Of a stretch of DNA of 8,052 bases, positions 2,488 to 7,732 are shown one piece after another (position 1 is the stretch's first letter; the number at the start of each line of letters is the position of its first letter). The stretch is from an uncultured Fibrobacter sp. (lineage in GTDB: Bacteria > Fibrobacterota > Fibrobacteria > Fibrobacterales > Fibrobacteraceae): contig CAMZFJ010000064.1 of assembly GCA_947306025.1 (NCBI GenBank), forward strand, positions 1-8,052. Reading direction: 5' to 3'. The translations under genes and the position numbers were made by a program. The notes below the pieces were generated by a model. That model saw only the letters and a program-made list of their open reading frames with translations. It was not told where the DNA came from and did no database searches.

Positions 2488-3180
2488 ATGAACCAGTTTG
2501 TTCTTGCATTCCCGATTCCTGTAGCCGTTGATGAAATTTTTGCCATTACCGAAAACGTCAAGGTCGCTGCCGATACAAAAACGGTGATGATTCCCGGTTG
2601 CAGCGTGCTGTTTAACGTCGTACGCCAGCCGGCTTCGCCTGATGTTTTGGATATTTTCAAGGAACGCAATGATTTGACGGAAGACGAAGAAAAGGCAATA
2701 GTTGCGCACAAGTCGCTTTTGTTCTTGCTCGGGAATGTAAAAAGCATGAACGATGTCGAAATGGTGAATATTGCTATTTCGAAGATGTTTGCCGCAGGGG
2801 CTACAGGCGTTTATATGCAACAATCTGGAACGGCATGGACCGCCGATGCGTTCGAAGACCAGTTTGGCGATGGCGAATATCCGATGGATGCCTGGATTAA
2901 CATTATCGAAGGCGAGGACGAAAAGACTTTCTACACGCTTGGACTTGCAACATTCTCGCTTCCGGATTTGTGCATCTCGACTTCTATCGAAGACCCGGAA
3001 GAAGCGCTGTTGATGGCTGCGGATAGCTTGTTCGGTGACGGGATCCCTGCAAAGTCGGGGAGTGTCATTGATTGGGGCGAGGGTGAAAAGTATGTGCTTC
3101 GCCAGGAACTCAAGGGCCTGTTCTCTAAAGACGCTCCCGAATACAATAAGCAAGGCTTGCTTAGAATTTTGAAGAAATAG
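2488..3180 (+). CDS. Hypothetical 230-aa protein, weak DUF4261-like resemblance
   Basis: An acidic, soluble protein of 230 aa with no signal peptide or membrane helix. ATG 2488 is chosen because GAGAG at 2477-2481 lies 6 nt upstream; the TTG at 2482 would abut that site. The gene starts 12 nt after the glycosyltransferase stop and is probably in the same operon. I do not recognise a catalytic motif. The segment GATGVYMQQSGTAWTADAF (from about residue 104), then PMDAWINI, then FYTLGLATFSLPDLCIS and an EDPEEALLMAADSL helix resembles in order the C-terminal part of DUF4261 proteins (a 'GAxGVY' strand, 'LPLDLW', 'YTxGLxxFGKxE'). This is pattern memory, not an alignment, and the function of that family is itself unknown. 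The reading frame has codon use and base composition like the upstream gene, supporting that it is real. Confidence 0.8.
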   Translation: MNQFVLAFPIPVAVDEIFAITENVKVAADTKTVMIPGCSVLFNVVRQPASPDVLDIFKERNDLTEDEEKAIVAHKSLLFLLGNVKSMNDVEMVNIAISKMFAAGATGVYMQQSGTAWTADAFEDQFGDGEYPMDAWINIIEGEDEKTFYTLGLATFSLPDLCISTSIEDPEEALLMAADSLFGDGIPAKSGSVIDWGEGEKYVLRQELKGLFSKDAPEYNKQGLLRILKK

Positions 3181-3181
3181 T

Positions 3182-3242
3182 AATACTATATAACCCATAT
3201 GGGCTATGGGAGTATTGTAGGCGCTTGTCTAAATTTGCGCCT
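3182..3242 (+). promoter_or_regulatory. Two consecutive hairpins just after the 2488-3180 gene
   Basis: Starting one base after the stop codon, AATACT (3182-3187) pairs with AGTATT (3211-3216), enclosing a second stem CCCATA (3194-3199) with TATGGG (3205-3210). Right after it, AGGCGC (3219-3224) pairs with GCGCCT (3237-3242) around a 12-nt loop. Neither is followed by a T-tract, so they are not classical intrinsic terminators. They could protect the 3' end of the upstream operon message, assist termination, or belong to the leader of the next gene. Confidence 0.4.
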
Positions 3243-3265
3243 GTATGTTAAAAAACGCAACATTT

Positions 3266-3271
3266 TATACT
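3266..3271 (+). promoter_or_regulatory. Possible -10 box for the large secreted-protein gene
   Basis: TATACT matches the sigma-70 -10 consensus at five of six positions and sits in an AT-rich stretch after the two hairpins. No convincing -35 hexamer is found 16-18 nt upstream. If used, transcription would begin near 3278 and give a leader of about 115 nt that includes the terminator-like hairpin at 3335-3354. This is a weak call. Confidence 0.25.
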
Positions 3272-3290
3272 TCCGTTCAGTTGTATCTCA

Positions 3291-3300
3291 CACAATTGTG
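3291..3300. promoter_or_regulatory. 10-bp perfect palindrome CACAATTGTG
   Basis: CACAATTGTG is its own reverse complement and lies in the leader between the possible -10 box and the terminator-like hairpin. Such a site could bind a dimeric regulator, but a 10-bp palindrome in AT-rich DNA may also be chance. No other copy was noticed in the window. Confidence 0.2.
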
Positions 3301-3322
3301 GGCTTCTTTGTATAAACGTTGT

Positions 3323-3367
3323 AAAAAAAATTGTCCTGTCGGTATTCCGTCAGGCTTTTTGTTTTTT
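3323..3367 (+). terminator. Terminator-like hairpin in the leader of the large gene (possible attenuator)
   Basis: An A-run (3323-3330) is followed by the stem CCTGTCGG (3335-3342), loop TATT, and CCGTCAGG (3347-3354). Seven of eight pairs match, with one central T-T mismatch. The T-rich tract CTTTTTGTTTTTT (3355-3367) follows. This is the normal layout of an intrinsic terminator. It ends only 24 nt before ATG 3392, leaving no room for a promoter after it. It is therefore either an attenuator for the downstream gene or the terminator of the upstream operon with partial read-through. CTTTTT at 3355-3360 can also pair with AAAAAG at 3372-3377, beside the ribosome site, giving an alternative fold. 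Confidence 0.55.
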
Positions 3368-3391
3368 AAAGAAAAAGAAGGAATGCAAAAA

Positions 3392-6300
3392 ATGAATATT
3401 TTGAATGTAATTACAAAGGTGCGAGTGGGTTTAATCCTACTCGTGATGTTTTTAATCTCTTCAACCGCATGGGCCGTGGCGACCCCCGTCAGGTACATTG
3501 ACGAGAATGGCGATGTACAGGAAATTTCGGATTATACCAAAGTGGCTGTTAATAAAGACGGGGCCCTTAATATTAAGGGAAGTGGTTGGTATGTGGTCAA
3601 AGGCTCGATTTATGCAACGAAGGCCGTCGATATCAACACCGATGTAAACCTAGTTCTTACCGATAGCTCGGAACTTACCATTGATATTTCTGCTGATAGT
3701 ACAGATAACCAAACTGTTTTCAATGTTGGTCGATTGGCTATTTATAGTCAAGAGGATCAATCGGGTAAATTGACTTTAGAAAGTAGTGCTAATGTTGAAA
3801 CTTCCTATGGTATTACTGCTTTTGGGGATGTGATTATTGCGGGTGGTTATGTAGAATCAACCGCAAGATATGCAATATATACTGTAGGAAAAACAATTAG
3901 AATTATTCGTGGTACTGTTTCTGTGGACGCACCAGCAAACATAATTAGCTCTAAAGGCCTTAATAGTAAAAACATAATCATTGATGGGGGTAGAATATTT
4001 GCTAACAGTACTACTGGCTTTTTCGCTGAAAATAATCTTTCTATTAATGGTGGCTATATAGATATTACGGGCAAGGACTGTGGTTGCTTTGTTAGAAATG
4101 ATTTCTTTATGACGGATGGTTCAATTAAAATACAAGCGGAAAATAAAGGCATTAATTCCTATAATGGCAATATCTATATTTCTGGAGGCTCTATAGATGC
4201 GACCGCTTCACATTATCAAGGCACGGGTCTTATTGCGAATAAAGGAAAAATCGTTGTTTCCGGTGGCTCTATAGACTTATCTGTACAGCAGTATATTAAG
4301 GGAATTTCTGCAAAAGATTCTCTAGTTCTCGGATGGACGAATACCTACGATTATATCAAATCTCCGGGTTTCTCTAGTGGCAAGGCTGTTGTTGTTGGTG
4401 CTTATGACAAGGATGGAGCGCTCGTGCTTAATAGCATATCGTTCAAGGACGAAGAAGGCAATGGGTACACCGGCGATATTACTGGAAATCTTAAAGAAAT
4501 CCAAAACAAGAAGCTTACACCGGCTTTTAAGATTGCTCTTGAAACTGGCGATGAAAATGTGGTTGTCGATCCGCTGTTTGTTGGTGCCTACGGAACATCG
4601 ACAAAACCTGCAGACCCAAAACGCAATGGCTATAAGTTTGTAGGCTGGTACACCGATAAAGATTTTAAGACGGAATTTGACTGGAATGAAAAAATTTCAC
4701 AGGATATTACGGTGTATGCCAAATGGAAAAAAGAGTTGCCTCCTGTCGAGTATCTTGATGAAAAAGGCGAGACGAAGACTATTACAGATTACATCGAGCT
4801 TACCGGTGACGAATCTCCGGACGATCCGATGTTCAAGAATGGCGGCTGGTTTGTGGTCAAGGGCGAAGTGACGTATGATGAAGTCCAGGGGAATTATTTG
4901 CCGTTCGAGTTGCAAATTGACAAAGATTGGAACCGTTTGGGACCGGATGTCAACCTGATTCTTGCAGACGGCGCCAAGCTGACTGTGAAGAATGAGGATT
5001 ACGATATGTCGTTTAGGAATCTGGCCGTCTATGCCCAGAGCACTGGCGAAAATATGGGAAAGTTCGAGGTCTATGCGAAAAATAGCACCGCTATAGATGT
5101 ATTTAATGCATTTACCGTTTATGGAGGCTCTGTCAAGGCTGTTTCGGAAGAAAGTGATGGTATTTGGGCTCGAGAAATCGTGATTAACGGTGGCATAGTC
5201 GATGCTGCTGGTACTTCTTCAGCTGATTATTCAGGTTGTGGTATTTATGCTAGCGATGAGAACGTTATCGTCAATGGCGGTTCTGTTACCGCAGCTGGTT
5301 TCAGAGGAATTTTGGGTTCTGGAGGAATCGAAATTAACGGAGGCGATGTCGATGCGACCGCGACAGGAGTTTCCGATGAATACAATTTCAGTTATGCTAT
5401 TGGTTCTTGGTATGATGTTAATGTAAATGGAGGCTCTCTTACTGTACATGCCAAAGACAAAAGCAGTTATGGCGTGTATGTGAGTGGCTCTGTAGCACAT
5501 TTAAATGCTGGTGAGGTCTTTGCCGATGGTGAAGGTAGTGGCTTTGCTGCACGACCCTCATGTTCGTCTTCTGGTGTTGAACTTGCTGGGGCTACCGTCA
5601 CGACTAACCGCTATACTTATATTGATGATTTGGGGCCTAAAAGTGATTTCTTTGTTAAAGTAGCAGTAAATGTTCTCTACACCGATGGCGAAGGCAATGT
5701 TTTTGAAGGTTCCATTTTTAAATGGGATGATTTGGTTGGTGAGTTTATTGACAAGCTTGACGTTGTCGCTGGCAAAACGTTGCGTCCGGTCAAGCCGAAT
5801 ATCGTCGTTACACAAGACGGTGAGGGTAAGATCCATGCCGAAATCAACGGAAACTACATCGGGGAAGATGATTTCATAATAACGGATAGAATTGAAGTTG
5901 ACGAAGTGAAGTTTGAACGCGATTTTACGACCGAAGGCTATTCTACCATAGTGCTTCCGTTCAACATAAAGACAAGCCTTTTAGTTGGTGTTGATTCTGT
6001 TCTTTCGTTTAATGGCATTGTCTTGGATGAAAATAAAAAGAAGGCCGTGGCCATGCAGGTTGTATGGGAAAAATCAATGGAAGAAGTTGAATTGCAAGCT
6101 TACACTCCGTATATGATCAAGATGAGCGACAAGTCTCTTGAAATTCTTGGCTCCGTAGTCTTGGAAACGACTCGCGATGCCGTTACCGAAAAGGATGGCT
6201 GGGAATTCCGTGGAACATATTCTTTCATGAAGTGGACCGAGGACAGTCCGGATTTGGGCCGAGTCTATGGCTTTGCCGCTTCTTCTGAAGGTGACGTGTC

Positions 6301-6640
6301 TGTAGGTCAGTTTGTTAAAATCGCTGCTGGGGCCAGTATCCGTCCGCTGCGTGCTTACTTGATTCACAATGTGCCGAGCACGGTTCGCGCTAATGGCTAC
6401 TATGCGAACCGCAACGTGGCTTCTATAAAGGATGAACTTCCGGAACAGATGAATTTGGTCATTGTGGGTAAAGACAAGAACGGCGAAGAACACACGACTG
6501 TCATTGGCCAGTTCAATACTCGCAGTGGAGAATTCCGTGCGAATAGCGTAAAGCGCGTGTACGACCTCAAGGGTCGTCCTGTGGACAAGGATGCTCGAAA
6601 GGTACGTGGTGCTTATTACAGAAAAAATTTGCTACATTAA
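3392..6640 (+). CDS. Large secreted beta-helix surface protein with duplicated module and sorting-like tail
   Basis: ATG 3392 is chosen because AGAAGGA (3376-3382) lies 9 nt upstream and it places a classic signal peptide at the N terminus: basic start, hydrophobic LILLVMFLI, cleavage after SSTAWA (residue 28). The mature protein has two homologous modules at about residues 32-390 and 451-810. Each opens with PV-x-Y-[IL]-DE-x-G, then GGW/GSGW-[FY]-VVKG, then DVNL-[VI]-L, then an array of about 20-25-residue turns with 'NGG' or 'SGG' corners. The turns resemble right-handed beta-helix repeats of the carbohydrate-binding Cthe_2159-like family. Residues of about 392-446 (GYKFVGWYTD ... ITVYAKW) are an InlB/Flg_new-type repeat. 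Residues of about 836-993 form a domain with GYSTIVLPFNI and AYTPYMIKMSDKS, a pattern I know from Bacteroidota surface proteins. The tail RVYDLKGRPVDKDARKVRGAYY resembles a type IX secretion sorting tail. Role unknown; surface adhesion or polysaccharide binding is an inference. A 45-aa peptide gene follows. Confidence 0.88.
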   Translation: MNILNVITKVRVGLILLVMFLISSTAWAVATPVRYIDENGDVQEISDYTKVAVNKDGALNIKGSGWYVVKGSIYATKAVDINTDVNLVLTDSSELTIDISADSTDNQTVFNVGRLAIYSQEDQSGKLTLESSANVETSYGITAFGDVIIAGGYVESTARYAIYTVGKTIRIIRGTVSVDAPANIISSKGLNSKNIIIDGGRIFANSTTGFFAENNLSINGGYIDITGKDCGCFVRNDFFMTDGSIKIQAENKGINSYNGNIYISGGSIDATASHYQGTGLIANKGKIVVSGGSIDLSVQQYIKGISAKDSLVLGWTNTYDYIKSPGFSSGKAVVVGAYDKDGALVLNSISFKDEEGNGYTGDITGNLKEIQNKKLTPAFKIALETGDENVVVDPLFVGAYGTSTKPADPKRNGYKFVGWYTDKDFKTEFDWNEKISQDITVYAKWKKELPPVEYLDEKGETKTITDYIELTGDESPDDPMFKNGGWFVVKGEVTYDEVQGNYLPFELQIDKDWNRLGPDVNLILADGAKLTVKNEDYDMSFRNLAVYAQSTGENMGKFEVYAKNSTAIDVFNAFTVYGGSVKAVSEESDGIWAREIVINGGIVDAAGTSSADYSGCGIYASDENVIVNGGSVTAAGFRGILGSGGIEINGGDVDATATGVSDEYNFSYAIGSWYDVNVNGGSLTVHAKDKSSYGVYVSGSVAHLNAGEVFADGEGSGFAARPSCSSSGVELAGATVTTNRYTYIDDLGPKSDFFVKVAVNVLYTDGEGNVFEGSIFKWDDLVGEFIDKLDVVAGKTLRPVKPNIVVTQDGEGKIHAEINGNYIGEDDFIITDRIEVDEVKFERDFTTEGYSTIVLPFNIKTSLLVGVDSVLSFNGIVLDENKKKAVAMQVVWEKSMEEVELQAYTPYMIKMSDKSLEILGSVVLETTRDAVTEKDGWEFRGTYSFMKWTEDSPDLGRVYGFAASSEGDVSVGQFVKIAAGASIRPLRAYLIHNVPSTVRANGYYANRNVASIKDELPEQMNLVIVGKDKNGEEHTTVIGQFNTRSGEFRANSVKRVYDLKGRPVDKDARKVRGAYYRKNLLH
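3482..5830 (+). repeat. Tandem duplication of a roughly 370-aa module, seen at protein level
   Basis: Copy A (from 3482) and copy B (from 4742) align in the same order: PVRYIDENGD with PVEYLDEKGE; GSGWYVVKGSI with GGWFVVKGEV; DVNLVLTDSSELTI with DVNLILADGAKLTV; LAIYSQ with LAVYAQ. 'GG' turns follow in both. The linkers after the helices also correspond: FKDEEGNGYTGDI with YTDGEGNVFEGSI. The copies are well diverged at DNA level, so this is an old duplication. Only copy A is followed by the InlB-type repeat (about 4565-4729). Confidence 0.75.
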
Positions 6641-6668
6641 CCCCCAAACCATTAATCATTGAATACAA

Positions 6669-6806
6669 ATGAATATGAAAAAAGAACAAAACCAGAAAAA
6701 AGAATACACATCTCCCGAGATGGAAATTGTTGAATTGCGCCATGAAACCAACCTGCTGCAAGGAAGCGGTTCTGAACCACCTCCTTGGAGTGACCAGCTC
6801 GGCTAG
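6669..6806 (+). CDS. 45-aa small peptide with Y-x-x-P and LL-x-G-S-G motifs
   Basis: This short frame starts 28 nt after the large gene's stop and ends 19 nt before the terminator stem, so it is probably the last cistron of that transcript. The peptide has a Lys/Gln/Glu-rich start (MNMKKEQNQKKE), a central Y-T-S-P-E-M-E-I-V-E-L segment, then NLLQGSG and a short tail SEPPPWSDQLG. The layout (basic start, Y-x-x-P, alternating hydrophobics, LL-x-G-S-G, variable tail) matches small orphan peptides I recall from Bacteroidota and Fibrobacter, often named only as hypothetical. No cysteine, signal peptide or membrane helix is present. Nearby starts are ATG 6669 and ATG 6675; neither has a clear Shine-Dalgarno. 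The 'GSG' junction could mark a leader/core boundary as in modified peptides, but no modification or export gene is in the window. Function unknown. Confidence 0.7.
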   Translation: MNMKKEQNQKKEYTSPEMEIVELRHETNLLQGSGSEPPPWSDQLG

Positions 6807-6825
6807 TCTATTGTAAGGACTGTGT

Positions 6826-6860
6826 AAACCCCGAAAGTTTTTAAGACTTTCGGGGTTTTT
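6826..6860 (+). terminator. Strong intrinsic terminator
   Basis: AAACCCCGAAAGT (6826-6838) and ACTTTCGGGGTTT (6846-6858) form a perfect 13-bp stem around a 7-nt loop, with the T-run extending to 6860. It ends the transcript carrying the large secreted protein and the small peptide. The minus-strand side has only a short T-run, so it acts mainly on the plus strand. Confidence 0.92.
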
Positions 6861-6873
6861 ATGTATAAATGTT

Positions 6874-6901
6874 TTGAAATTGTAATGGATTTCGTTATAT
6901 T
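6874..6901 (+). promoter_or_regulatory. Sigma-70-like promoter of the phosphatase gene
   Basis: TTGAAA (6874-6879) and TATATT (6896-6901) are separated by 16 nt and lie between the preceding terminator and the Shine-Dalgarno AAGGGGA (6911-6917). Transcription would start near 6908, giving a very short leader. Position and spacing fit well; no experiment supports it. Confidence 0.55.
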
Positions 6902-6922
6902 AGACTTGTAAAGGGGACTTTT

Positions 6923-7732
6923 ATGGCAAATATTTTGAATTTTGAATGTATCGATAACGCTAGACAACTTGGAGGCATCTTGGCGGGGGGCCGTCGTGTC
7001 AAGCATAATATGCTTTTCCGCAGTGGAAACCTGTCGCTAGCGACCGAAAACGATTTGCACCGTCTGCGTGACGAGTTTGGCATTCGTTTGGTTATAGACT
7101 TGCGTTCGGACTTTGAATATATGCGCAAACCGGACAAACTTCTCGATGGTATGTCGGTGGTCTCGATTCCTGTTTTAGACGAATTGTTGCGCAATAGCGC
7201 GCTGCAAAAGGAACAGATTATGCCTGCGAAAGGGGAGGGAATGATGGAACTCCTCTTTAAGGTTGCGCGCTTCCCGTGGGCCACTAAGTTAAAGGATGTA
7301 CTTTATAATTACTTTGCTGAAGGCGAGTATGCGCATCGCCAATTTGGGGAATTCTTTAAGACGGTGCTTGCGCAAAAAGGCGCGCCAGTTCTATGGCATT
7401 GCACTTCGGGCAAGGATCGTTGCGGCTTTGGTGCGGTGCTGTTGCTGGCGGCGCTTGGCGCCGATGACGATGCTGTTTTGGATGATTACGCCGAATCAGG
7501 AAATTCGTACCGCAAACAGCTCGAATTGATGACAGCGAAAGGCCGAGCGGCAGGAATGACGGATACGCAATTGGACGTGTTGCATTTCTTGGTGAGCGTT
7601 AAGCGCGAGTATATGGAAACTCCAGTGAAGCTCATTAACGCGAAATATGGCTCGCTATTGAATTTTATCCGGCAAAAAATCGGCGTATCGCAATCTGAAA
7701 TTGATACGCTTAGAGAATATTATTTGGAGTAG
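6923..7732 (+). CDS. Protein-tyrosine-phosphatase-like enzyme (CX5R, Y_phosphatase3/IphP type)
   Basis: A cytoplasmic 269-aa protein with no signal peptide. ATG 6923 has AAGGGGA 5 nt upstream. The N-terminal NARQLGGI corresponds to the 'N-x-RDLGG' motif of this family. It is followed by VIDLRSDFEYMRKPD, matching the 'DLRS-x-x-E-x-x-x-PD' block. The catalytic P-loop is HCTSGKDRCG with Cys160 as nucleophile and Arg166 binding phosphate; Asp165 sits in the loop as in other CX5R enzymes of this class. All key residues are present, so an active phosphatase is expected. Substrates may be phosphotyrosine proteins, phosphoinositides or other phosphate esters and cannot be told apart here. The gene has its own promoter, stands between terminators and seems to be monocistronic, with no functional link to its neighbours visible. 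Confidence 0.9.
   Translation: MANILNFECIDNARQLGGILAGGRRVKHNMLFRSGNLSLATENDLHRLRDEFGIRLVIDLRSDFEYMRKPDKLLDGMSVVSIPVLDELLRNSALQKEQIMPAKGEGMMELLFKVARFPWATKLKDVLYNYFAEGEYAHRQFGEFFKTVLAQKGAPVLWHCTSGKDRCGFGAVLLLAALGADDDAVLDDYAESGNSYRKQLELMTAKGRAAGMTDTQLDVLHFLVSVKREYMETPVKLINAKYGSLLNFIRQKIGVSQSEIDTLREYYLE

Follow-up and report, generated by a model that had tools for sequence, protein, structure and literature searches.

A surface protein gene and a short last gene

Fibrobacter is a genus of fibre-digesting gut bacteria, and the stretch analysed here, 8,052 nucleotides of a contig from an uncultured Fibrobacter sp. (hereafter the window), carries a large gene followed closely by a very short one, both on the forward strand, as are all features of the window described below. 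The large gene, an open frame at 3245..6640, encodes a secreted surface protein with Cthe_2159 and List_Bact_rpt domains; its true start is probably an in-frame ATG near 3383 or 3392, just ahead of a signal-peptide-like stretch, start and secretion both being judged by eye. Its C-terminal module (5768..6637) is common to most of the proteins paired with peptides of the kind described in this study. After 28 nt follows the frame of a 45-aa peptide (6669..6806, ATG to TAG), for which a second in-frame ATG at 6675 offers an alternative start, and then a stem-loop of 15 pairs (6826..6858) that resembles an intrinsic terminator and would close the unit of surface protein and peptide. This stem-loop is the longest terminator-like site of the window, where a scan found 11 such sites against 8.3 expected, a count not above chance.

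The original prediction regarded the short frame as a real last cistron and described a Lys-rich start, the sequence YTSP, alternating hydrophobic residues, NLLQGSG and a tail with Pro and Trp, all of which are present in the translation. In a search of 5.8 billion proteins, 14 of 14 candidate relatives matched the peptide at E ≤ 1 (best 2.9e-21), the residues Y13, S33 and W40 were invariant across the 15 aligned sequences (window peptide plus the 14 database relatives), and the frame was open in all four loci compared (window and three relatives). Neither a lack of homologues nor broken frames, the two outcomes named in advance as contrary to the prediction, was encountered. Judged by these homologues, by the intact frames and by its position before the longest terminator-like stem of the window, the 45-aa frame is a real gene. 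A chance ORF in a 3' untranslated region, which the shortness of the frame and the lack of an obvious ribosome-binding site before it (by eye) might suggest, was rejected as next to impossible given the homologues, the conserved open frames and a family-wide motif at fixed spacing.

The original prediction also called for a comparison of the first 30 residues with the tail. Among the 14 relatives from the database the tail does differ, with WAGEVG, LPPWED and a loss of three residues as examples, and it differs strongly between paralogues. In the four loci compared, the last 15 residues are identical and the first 30 vary. In the two relatives that have lost three tail residues (P0012 and P0013), the Ser is still found at the same distance from the Tyr. 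The window peptide had no match at E ≤ 1 in Pfam, NCBIfam or PHROG, 50 family members gave weak matches only to known families, and the peptide alignment had no confirmed match on reference-genome or viral contigs.

Comparison of loci also bears on the status of the two genes in the genome. The neighbouring phosphatase matched Fibrobacter contigs at 73-87% in the genome scan. One related locus (L001) keeps the pair with a shorter surface protein (676 vs 1131 aa as open frames), and in two others (L002 and L003, one of them labelled F. succinogenes) the surface protein and the peptide (window 3180-6923) are absent and the flanking DUF4261-like and phosphatase genes adjoin, with no gene between. 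By this comparison, surface protein and peptide are an accessory unit. The orthologous surface proteins (window 3245-6640, L001, L040 and L041) have open frames of between 676 and 1516 aa and nearly identical C-terminal ends.

A predicted leader and core and a separate enzyme cassette

Relatives of the peptide were found throughout the genus, in line with the resemblance to small Fibrobacter peptides mentioned in the original prediction. With a broader alignment (E ≤ 0.01) the family is present in 74 of 80 Fibrobacter genomes and in 75 of 167 Fibrobacterota genomes (the same 74 and one other, G151), with up to 13 precursors per genome, counts that include many fragmented genomes and ignore shared descent; the first, narrow alignment matched 76 of the 80 at E ≤ 1. 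Two different peptides often lie in tandem (L045, L056, L058, L088, L089, L091 and L106), and in the tandems of L088 and L106 one tail resembles VIIVPRP or FDVIIKDRP and the partner ends in DPLA.

Across 71 distinct peptides, a leader motif K-K-x-Y-x-x-P-x-M...L-L at fixed spacing precedes a Ser and a variable acidic tail. Relative to the Tyr (present in all 71), Lys stands at -3 in 68 peptides and at -2 in 67, Met at +5 in 61, Leu at +16 in 70, Leu at +17 in 58 with Met there in 10, and Ser at +20 in 68; Pro at +3 occurs in 71/71 by construction, as rows were anchored on [YF]xxP. These counts cover 71 of 72 distinct peptides, the remaining one having no Lys before its YxxP, and they are not independent of selection since the family was collected by profile; besides, the L027 peptide was dropped from alignment A2 because its start is unclear, and the L053 peptide was given a later start. 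The tails span 12 to 31 residues, with 24% Asp/Glu and 5% Lys/Arg/His, and some short ones carry several Cys. This rigid spacing together with variable acidic tails points to a leader-and-core layout, which lends good support to the leader-plus-tail peptide that had been one of the options proposed, and at the level of sequence the anatomy of the family is that of a RiPP precursor.

In the window peptide, the predicted leader comprises residues 1-30 (6669..6758), with K10, K11, Y13, P16, M18, L29 and L30 at the family positions, and its YxxPxM (Y13, P16 and M18; 6705..6722) is the presumed RRE-binding motif. The predicted core, QGSGSEPPPWSDQLG (6759..6803), is the segment identical in the four loci, and its third residue, Ser33 (6765..6767), is the presumed phosphorylation site. 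Double-glycine leader peptides, which are exported by C39 transporters, carry G-G/A/S before the cut. The Fibrobacter family does not show this pattern, as the residue before the Ser varies widely in the 71 distinct peptides (G 24, A 12, D 8, C 7, E 6). A Pfam scan of one cassette exporter gave no match to PF03412 (C39).

A putative machinery for such a precursor is encoded in a cassette known from related Fibrobacter genomes rather than from the window's own, which consists of a PqqD-type RRE, an HprK-like kinase, a signal-peptidase-like protease, an NTP_transf_5 nucleotidyltransferase and an ABC exporter. Within 6 kb of 20 RRE genes, at least four of whose loci were chosen for a nearby peptide, ABC genes were found in 20, an S24/S26 protease in 19, the HprK-like kinase in 18, NTP_transf_5 in 13 and a peptide in 9. 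One locus (L107 of genome G002) has RRE, ABC and NTP_transf_5 genes and neither kinase nor protease nearby, though that genome has a peptide. A strong PF05402 match (E below 1e-8, counted by eye) occurs in 72 of the 80 genus genomes, and PF05402 is over its cut-off in 74, the remaining two being inside longer frames. The occurrence of the peptide coincides with that of a strong stand-alone RRE in 74 of the 80 genomes (70 with both, 4 with neither; Fisher p = 6e-4, counted by eye and without kinship correction), four genomes having peptides without a strong RRE and two an RRE without peptide.

The enzymes retain the residues expected of their classes in alignments that include three non-Fibrobacter rows. 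The protease conserves S34 (22/22), H76 (22/22) and D91 (21/22) and is over the cut-off of Pfam S24 or S26 in both cases scanned, with signal peptidase I models below cut-off. The kinase conserves H145 (21/21), K166 (21/21), D185 (20/21) and D186 (21/21), consistent with the His-Lys-Asp-Asp set described for lasso-peptide kinases in the parts of that literature available to us, a comparison made by residue kind. HprK-related models match it below cut-off (PF07475 weakly, E 0.007 and 0.07), and its predicted structure (pLDDT 92) has a PEPCK/HprK-like fold; Foldseek matches of this model include HprK chains, and the 50 entries listed by VIA are PEPCK, with no HprK among them. By sequence, no solved structure matched the kinase or the protease at E ≤ 0.1, and the best match of the RRE was TfuB1 (E 0.26, weak). 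The NTP transferase belongs to PF14907 (E 2.9e-41), and the exporter combines ABC_membrane and ABC_tran.

In genome G046, which holds an orthologue of the window peptide, the RRE lies at 221 kb of contig C3 and the 11 peptides of this genome are distributed over contigs C1, C2 and C6 and at 13, 35, 389 and 437 kb of C3. From these positions the cassette would act in trans, a single one seemingly providing for as many as 13 precursors scattered over a genome. Additionally, an NTP_transf_5 copy lies within 300 nt of a peptide in seven of eight fully listed genomes, G046 being the exception (7 of 19 copies, with coordinates compared by eye).

Other genes were observed around the cassettes. At L095:900-3933 and L099:16607-20000, radical SAM genes (PF04055) lie beside the cassette. 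They adjoin several 190-214 aa frames, one of them truncated where the locus ends, which begin like lipoproteins, are rich in Ser in the middle and have a common tail like SMVTTFE; this is possibly a second modified-peptide system. A database protein of 555 aa (P0062) matches the kinase profile with two HprK-like stretches and is perhaps a tandem kinase, and a DUF5662 protein (Pfam identity from L089 only) recurs near the cassette in L089, L090, L091, L103 and L104.

Comparison with known phosphorylated peptides

With this separate cassette, which is not visible in the window, the peptide looks like an LPP-like RiPP precursor. Linear polyphosphorylated peptides (LPPs) were published from Bacillota and have a YxxP leader (precursor consensus YxxPxVLxHQxIxFETxxS), a phosphorylated Ser at core position 3 and a leader cut by a signal-peptidase-like enzyme; in the accessible parts of the article, their role is given as unknown by the authors, who confine LPPs to Bacillota at one point and elsewhere describe the peptidase cluster as mainly from that phylum (Popov et al., 2026; PMC13381572). 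As far as those parts describe them, five enzyme kinds are common to both systems, namely a discrete RRE, an HprK-like kinase, a signal-peptidase-like (SpI-like) serine protease with Ser/His/Asp, an NTP transferase and an MsbA-like exporter, and the Fibrobacter peptides likewise combine a YxxP leader with a variable core and a Ser at predicted core position 3. In contrast, they do not follow the published consensus beyond the common Y, P and Ser: the distance from Tyr to Ser is 20 rather than 18, the presumed cut follows LL (xLL) instead of FET, and their leaders read YxxPxM against YxxPxV in LPP and YxxPxL in lasso leaders. Because leader spacing and consensus differ, we name the system LPP-like and not a member of the LPPs. 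Relative to the published description, the Fibrobacter system also differs in its host phylum, Fibrobacterota, in having one cassette for numerous scattered precursors and in the pairing of these precursors with surface proteins. None of the titles and abstract openings covered by our literature search, thin on subscription journals, describes such a system in Fibrobacter.

Phosphorylated lasso peptides of the paeninodin and Bsf types also resemble the Fibrobacter system, having, in the sources available, a His-Lys-Asp-Asp kinase, an RRE, a nucleotidyltransferase and a leader of the YxxPxL type. They differ in that the Ser of paeninodin is described as its C-terminal residue, whereas the conserved Ser of Fibrobacter lies near the start of the predicted core. 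That the window peptide is itself a lasso-peptide precursor could draw on this similar motif, on weak matches of 3 of 50 family members to the paeninodin-family model (best E 0.033) and on lasso-type PqqD models, which match the RRE below their cut-offs. However, the B2 leader protease (PF13471) is over cut-off in none of the 80 Fibrobacter genomes (sub-threshold matches at E ≤ 0.01 in 8), and the protease beside the RRE is of the signal-peptidase type. We rejected this explanation as highly improbable, with no B2 protease over the cut-off. Pseudomycoidin, a Bacillus lasso peptide for which the passages available mention no tie to a surface protein, serves as a model for what a kinase and a nucleotidyltransferase can do, as PsmK and PsmN place a phosphate and then a hexose on Ser (PMC9266682).

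The kinase search of plasmid records gave three matches outside Fibrobacterota. The record of Prevotella sp. F0039 carries consecutive kinase, protease and RRE genes. At another place it has a 65-aa frame whose Y, P, LL and Ser keep the exact Fibrobacter spacing (profile E 0.083, weak) and which precedes a protein of at least 386 aa. In Phocaeicola massiliensis, RRE, NTP_transf_5, ABC and kinase genes lie behind a 1089-aa frame and a 38-aa YxxPxV peptide with Ser at +19 and no LL, and Butyrivibrio fibrisolvens pNP243 carries a kinase, a 59-aa YxxPxL frame, an RRE, a protease and NTP_transf_5. The Fibrobacter peptide profile matched nothing in the whole Phocaeicola and Butyrivibrio records, and a profile built from the peptides of Prevotella and Phocaeicola recovered nothing beyond its own two seeds. 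These single cases, found after the fact, are leads only, the first two offering possible counterparts for the resemblance to Bacteroidota peptides mentioned in the original prediction.

Pairing with surface proteins and the proposed pathway

The pairing of the peptides with surface proteins is the strongest signal in these genomes. Such a protein lies upstream of 59 of 72 distinct peptides, with a median gap of 17 nt (largest 333), and in a survey of 21 loci it is the only neighbour seen repeatedly right next to peptides. Among 25 proteins of the neighbour cluster, 23 have a C-terminal end in common with 21 or 22 others, and their N-terminal parts mostly differ. In eight genomes with 56 full modules, a peptide begins within 200 nt behind 47 of them (a reciprocal count that leaves out 10 partial matches of 66, one of which precedes a peptide), and a module lies at most 400 nt upstream of 59 of the 70 peptides, so that nine full modules have no peptide behind them and 11 peptides no module upstream. 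A relaxed search behind the nine modules found no peptide, and four peptide-less genomes also lack a full module, two of them having three short matches between them. The proposal that the peptide is a partner of the surface protein was thus sustained as regards gene pairing, which is as far as these counts carry it.

Over 47 pairs, distances were correlated between core and module (r 0.55), leader and module (0.49) and leader and core (0.39), each unequalled in 2000 permutations of a Mantel test that leaves out pairs with gaps of 60 nt or more or with a short core; between distant modules (1024 comparisons), the core-module r was only 0.13. This correlation shows shared descent at least, not interaction. 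A type IX secretion signal was considered for the module and rejected, as nothing matched over cut-off (one member with a weak CHU_C match, E 0.11), and a structure predicted for the module (pLDDT 73.7) matched nothing in the PDB at E ≤ 0.001.

Since module pairing (59/70 peptides) is stronger than proximity to the cassette (9/20 RRE loci with a peptide within 6 kb), the peptide might serve the surface protein as a small partner without being modified, for instance as a chaperone or a translational tail, and resemble RRE leaders by coincidence. We consider this improbable, because Leu-Leu and Ser stand at a fixed distance from YxxP in nearly all members, peptides without an upstream module exist, and peptides do occur close to NTP_transf_5 in seven of eight genomes and beside the cassette in those nine loci. 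A more serious contender, though still unlikely in our view, is that the pathway yields a diffusible bacteriocin or signal, with the surface protein as no more than a convenient co-transcribed neighbour or a receptor: the short variable tails, some with several Cys, and the many paralogues per genome would fit it, whereas the identical core of the four loci, the pairing with one protein module and the recurrence of the surface protein as direct neighbour (in a survey not aimed at immunity genes) argue against it.

Taken together, we consider it likely that the 45-aa peptide is made by the ribosome as a precursor, which an LPP-like pathway turns into a modified peptide. From the gene family, its motif, the cassette of related genomes and the pairing we infer a route in which a stand-alone RRE protein would grip the leader through YxxPxM, the HprK-like kinase would phosphorylate Ser33, the nucleotidyltransferase may attach another group to this phosphate, the signal-peptidase-like serine protease would cut after Leu30 and the ABC transporter would export the 15-residue core. 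All of these enzymes would come from a single cassette at a different place in the genome, shared by numerous scattered precursors. Cleavage after Leu30 and phosphorylation of Ser33 are proposed by analogy, mainly because a leader ending at Leu+17 makes the near-invariant Ser the third core residue, as in LPP, and the added group may be a sugar, as the available passages on pseudomycoidin suggest (PMC9266682). As the precursor gene usually lies behind that of a large secreted protein with the common C-terminal module, probably on one transcript, the cell surface is the most likely place for the exported peptide to act, jointly with that protein.

As read from these genomes, an LPP-like system is near-universal in Fibrobacter and its precursors are mostly paired with one class of surface protein; its occurrence outside Bacillota, the use of one cassette for numerous scattered precursors and the surface-protein pairing would be the new elements. 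A tentative extension, which we hold as possible without favouring it, is a genus-wide surface-tagging system, in which one cassette would phosphorylate, and perhaps glycosylate, many exported peptides, each mature peptide being dedicated to the surface protein encoded upstream and docking on its C-terminal module as an anchor, a cap or a link to surface glycans. If so, LPP-like peptides would belong to the structure of the cell surface and would not be natural products that diffuse away. Overall, the pairing turns the function of phosphate-modified linear peptides into a testable question, namely whether the mature peptide binds or modifies its surface partner.
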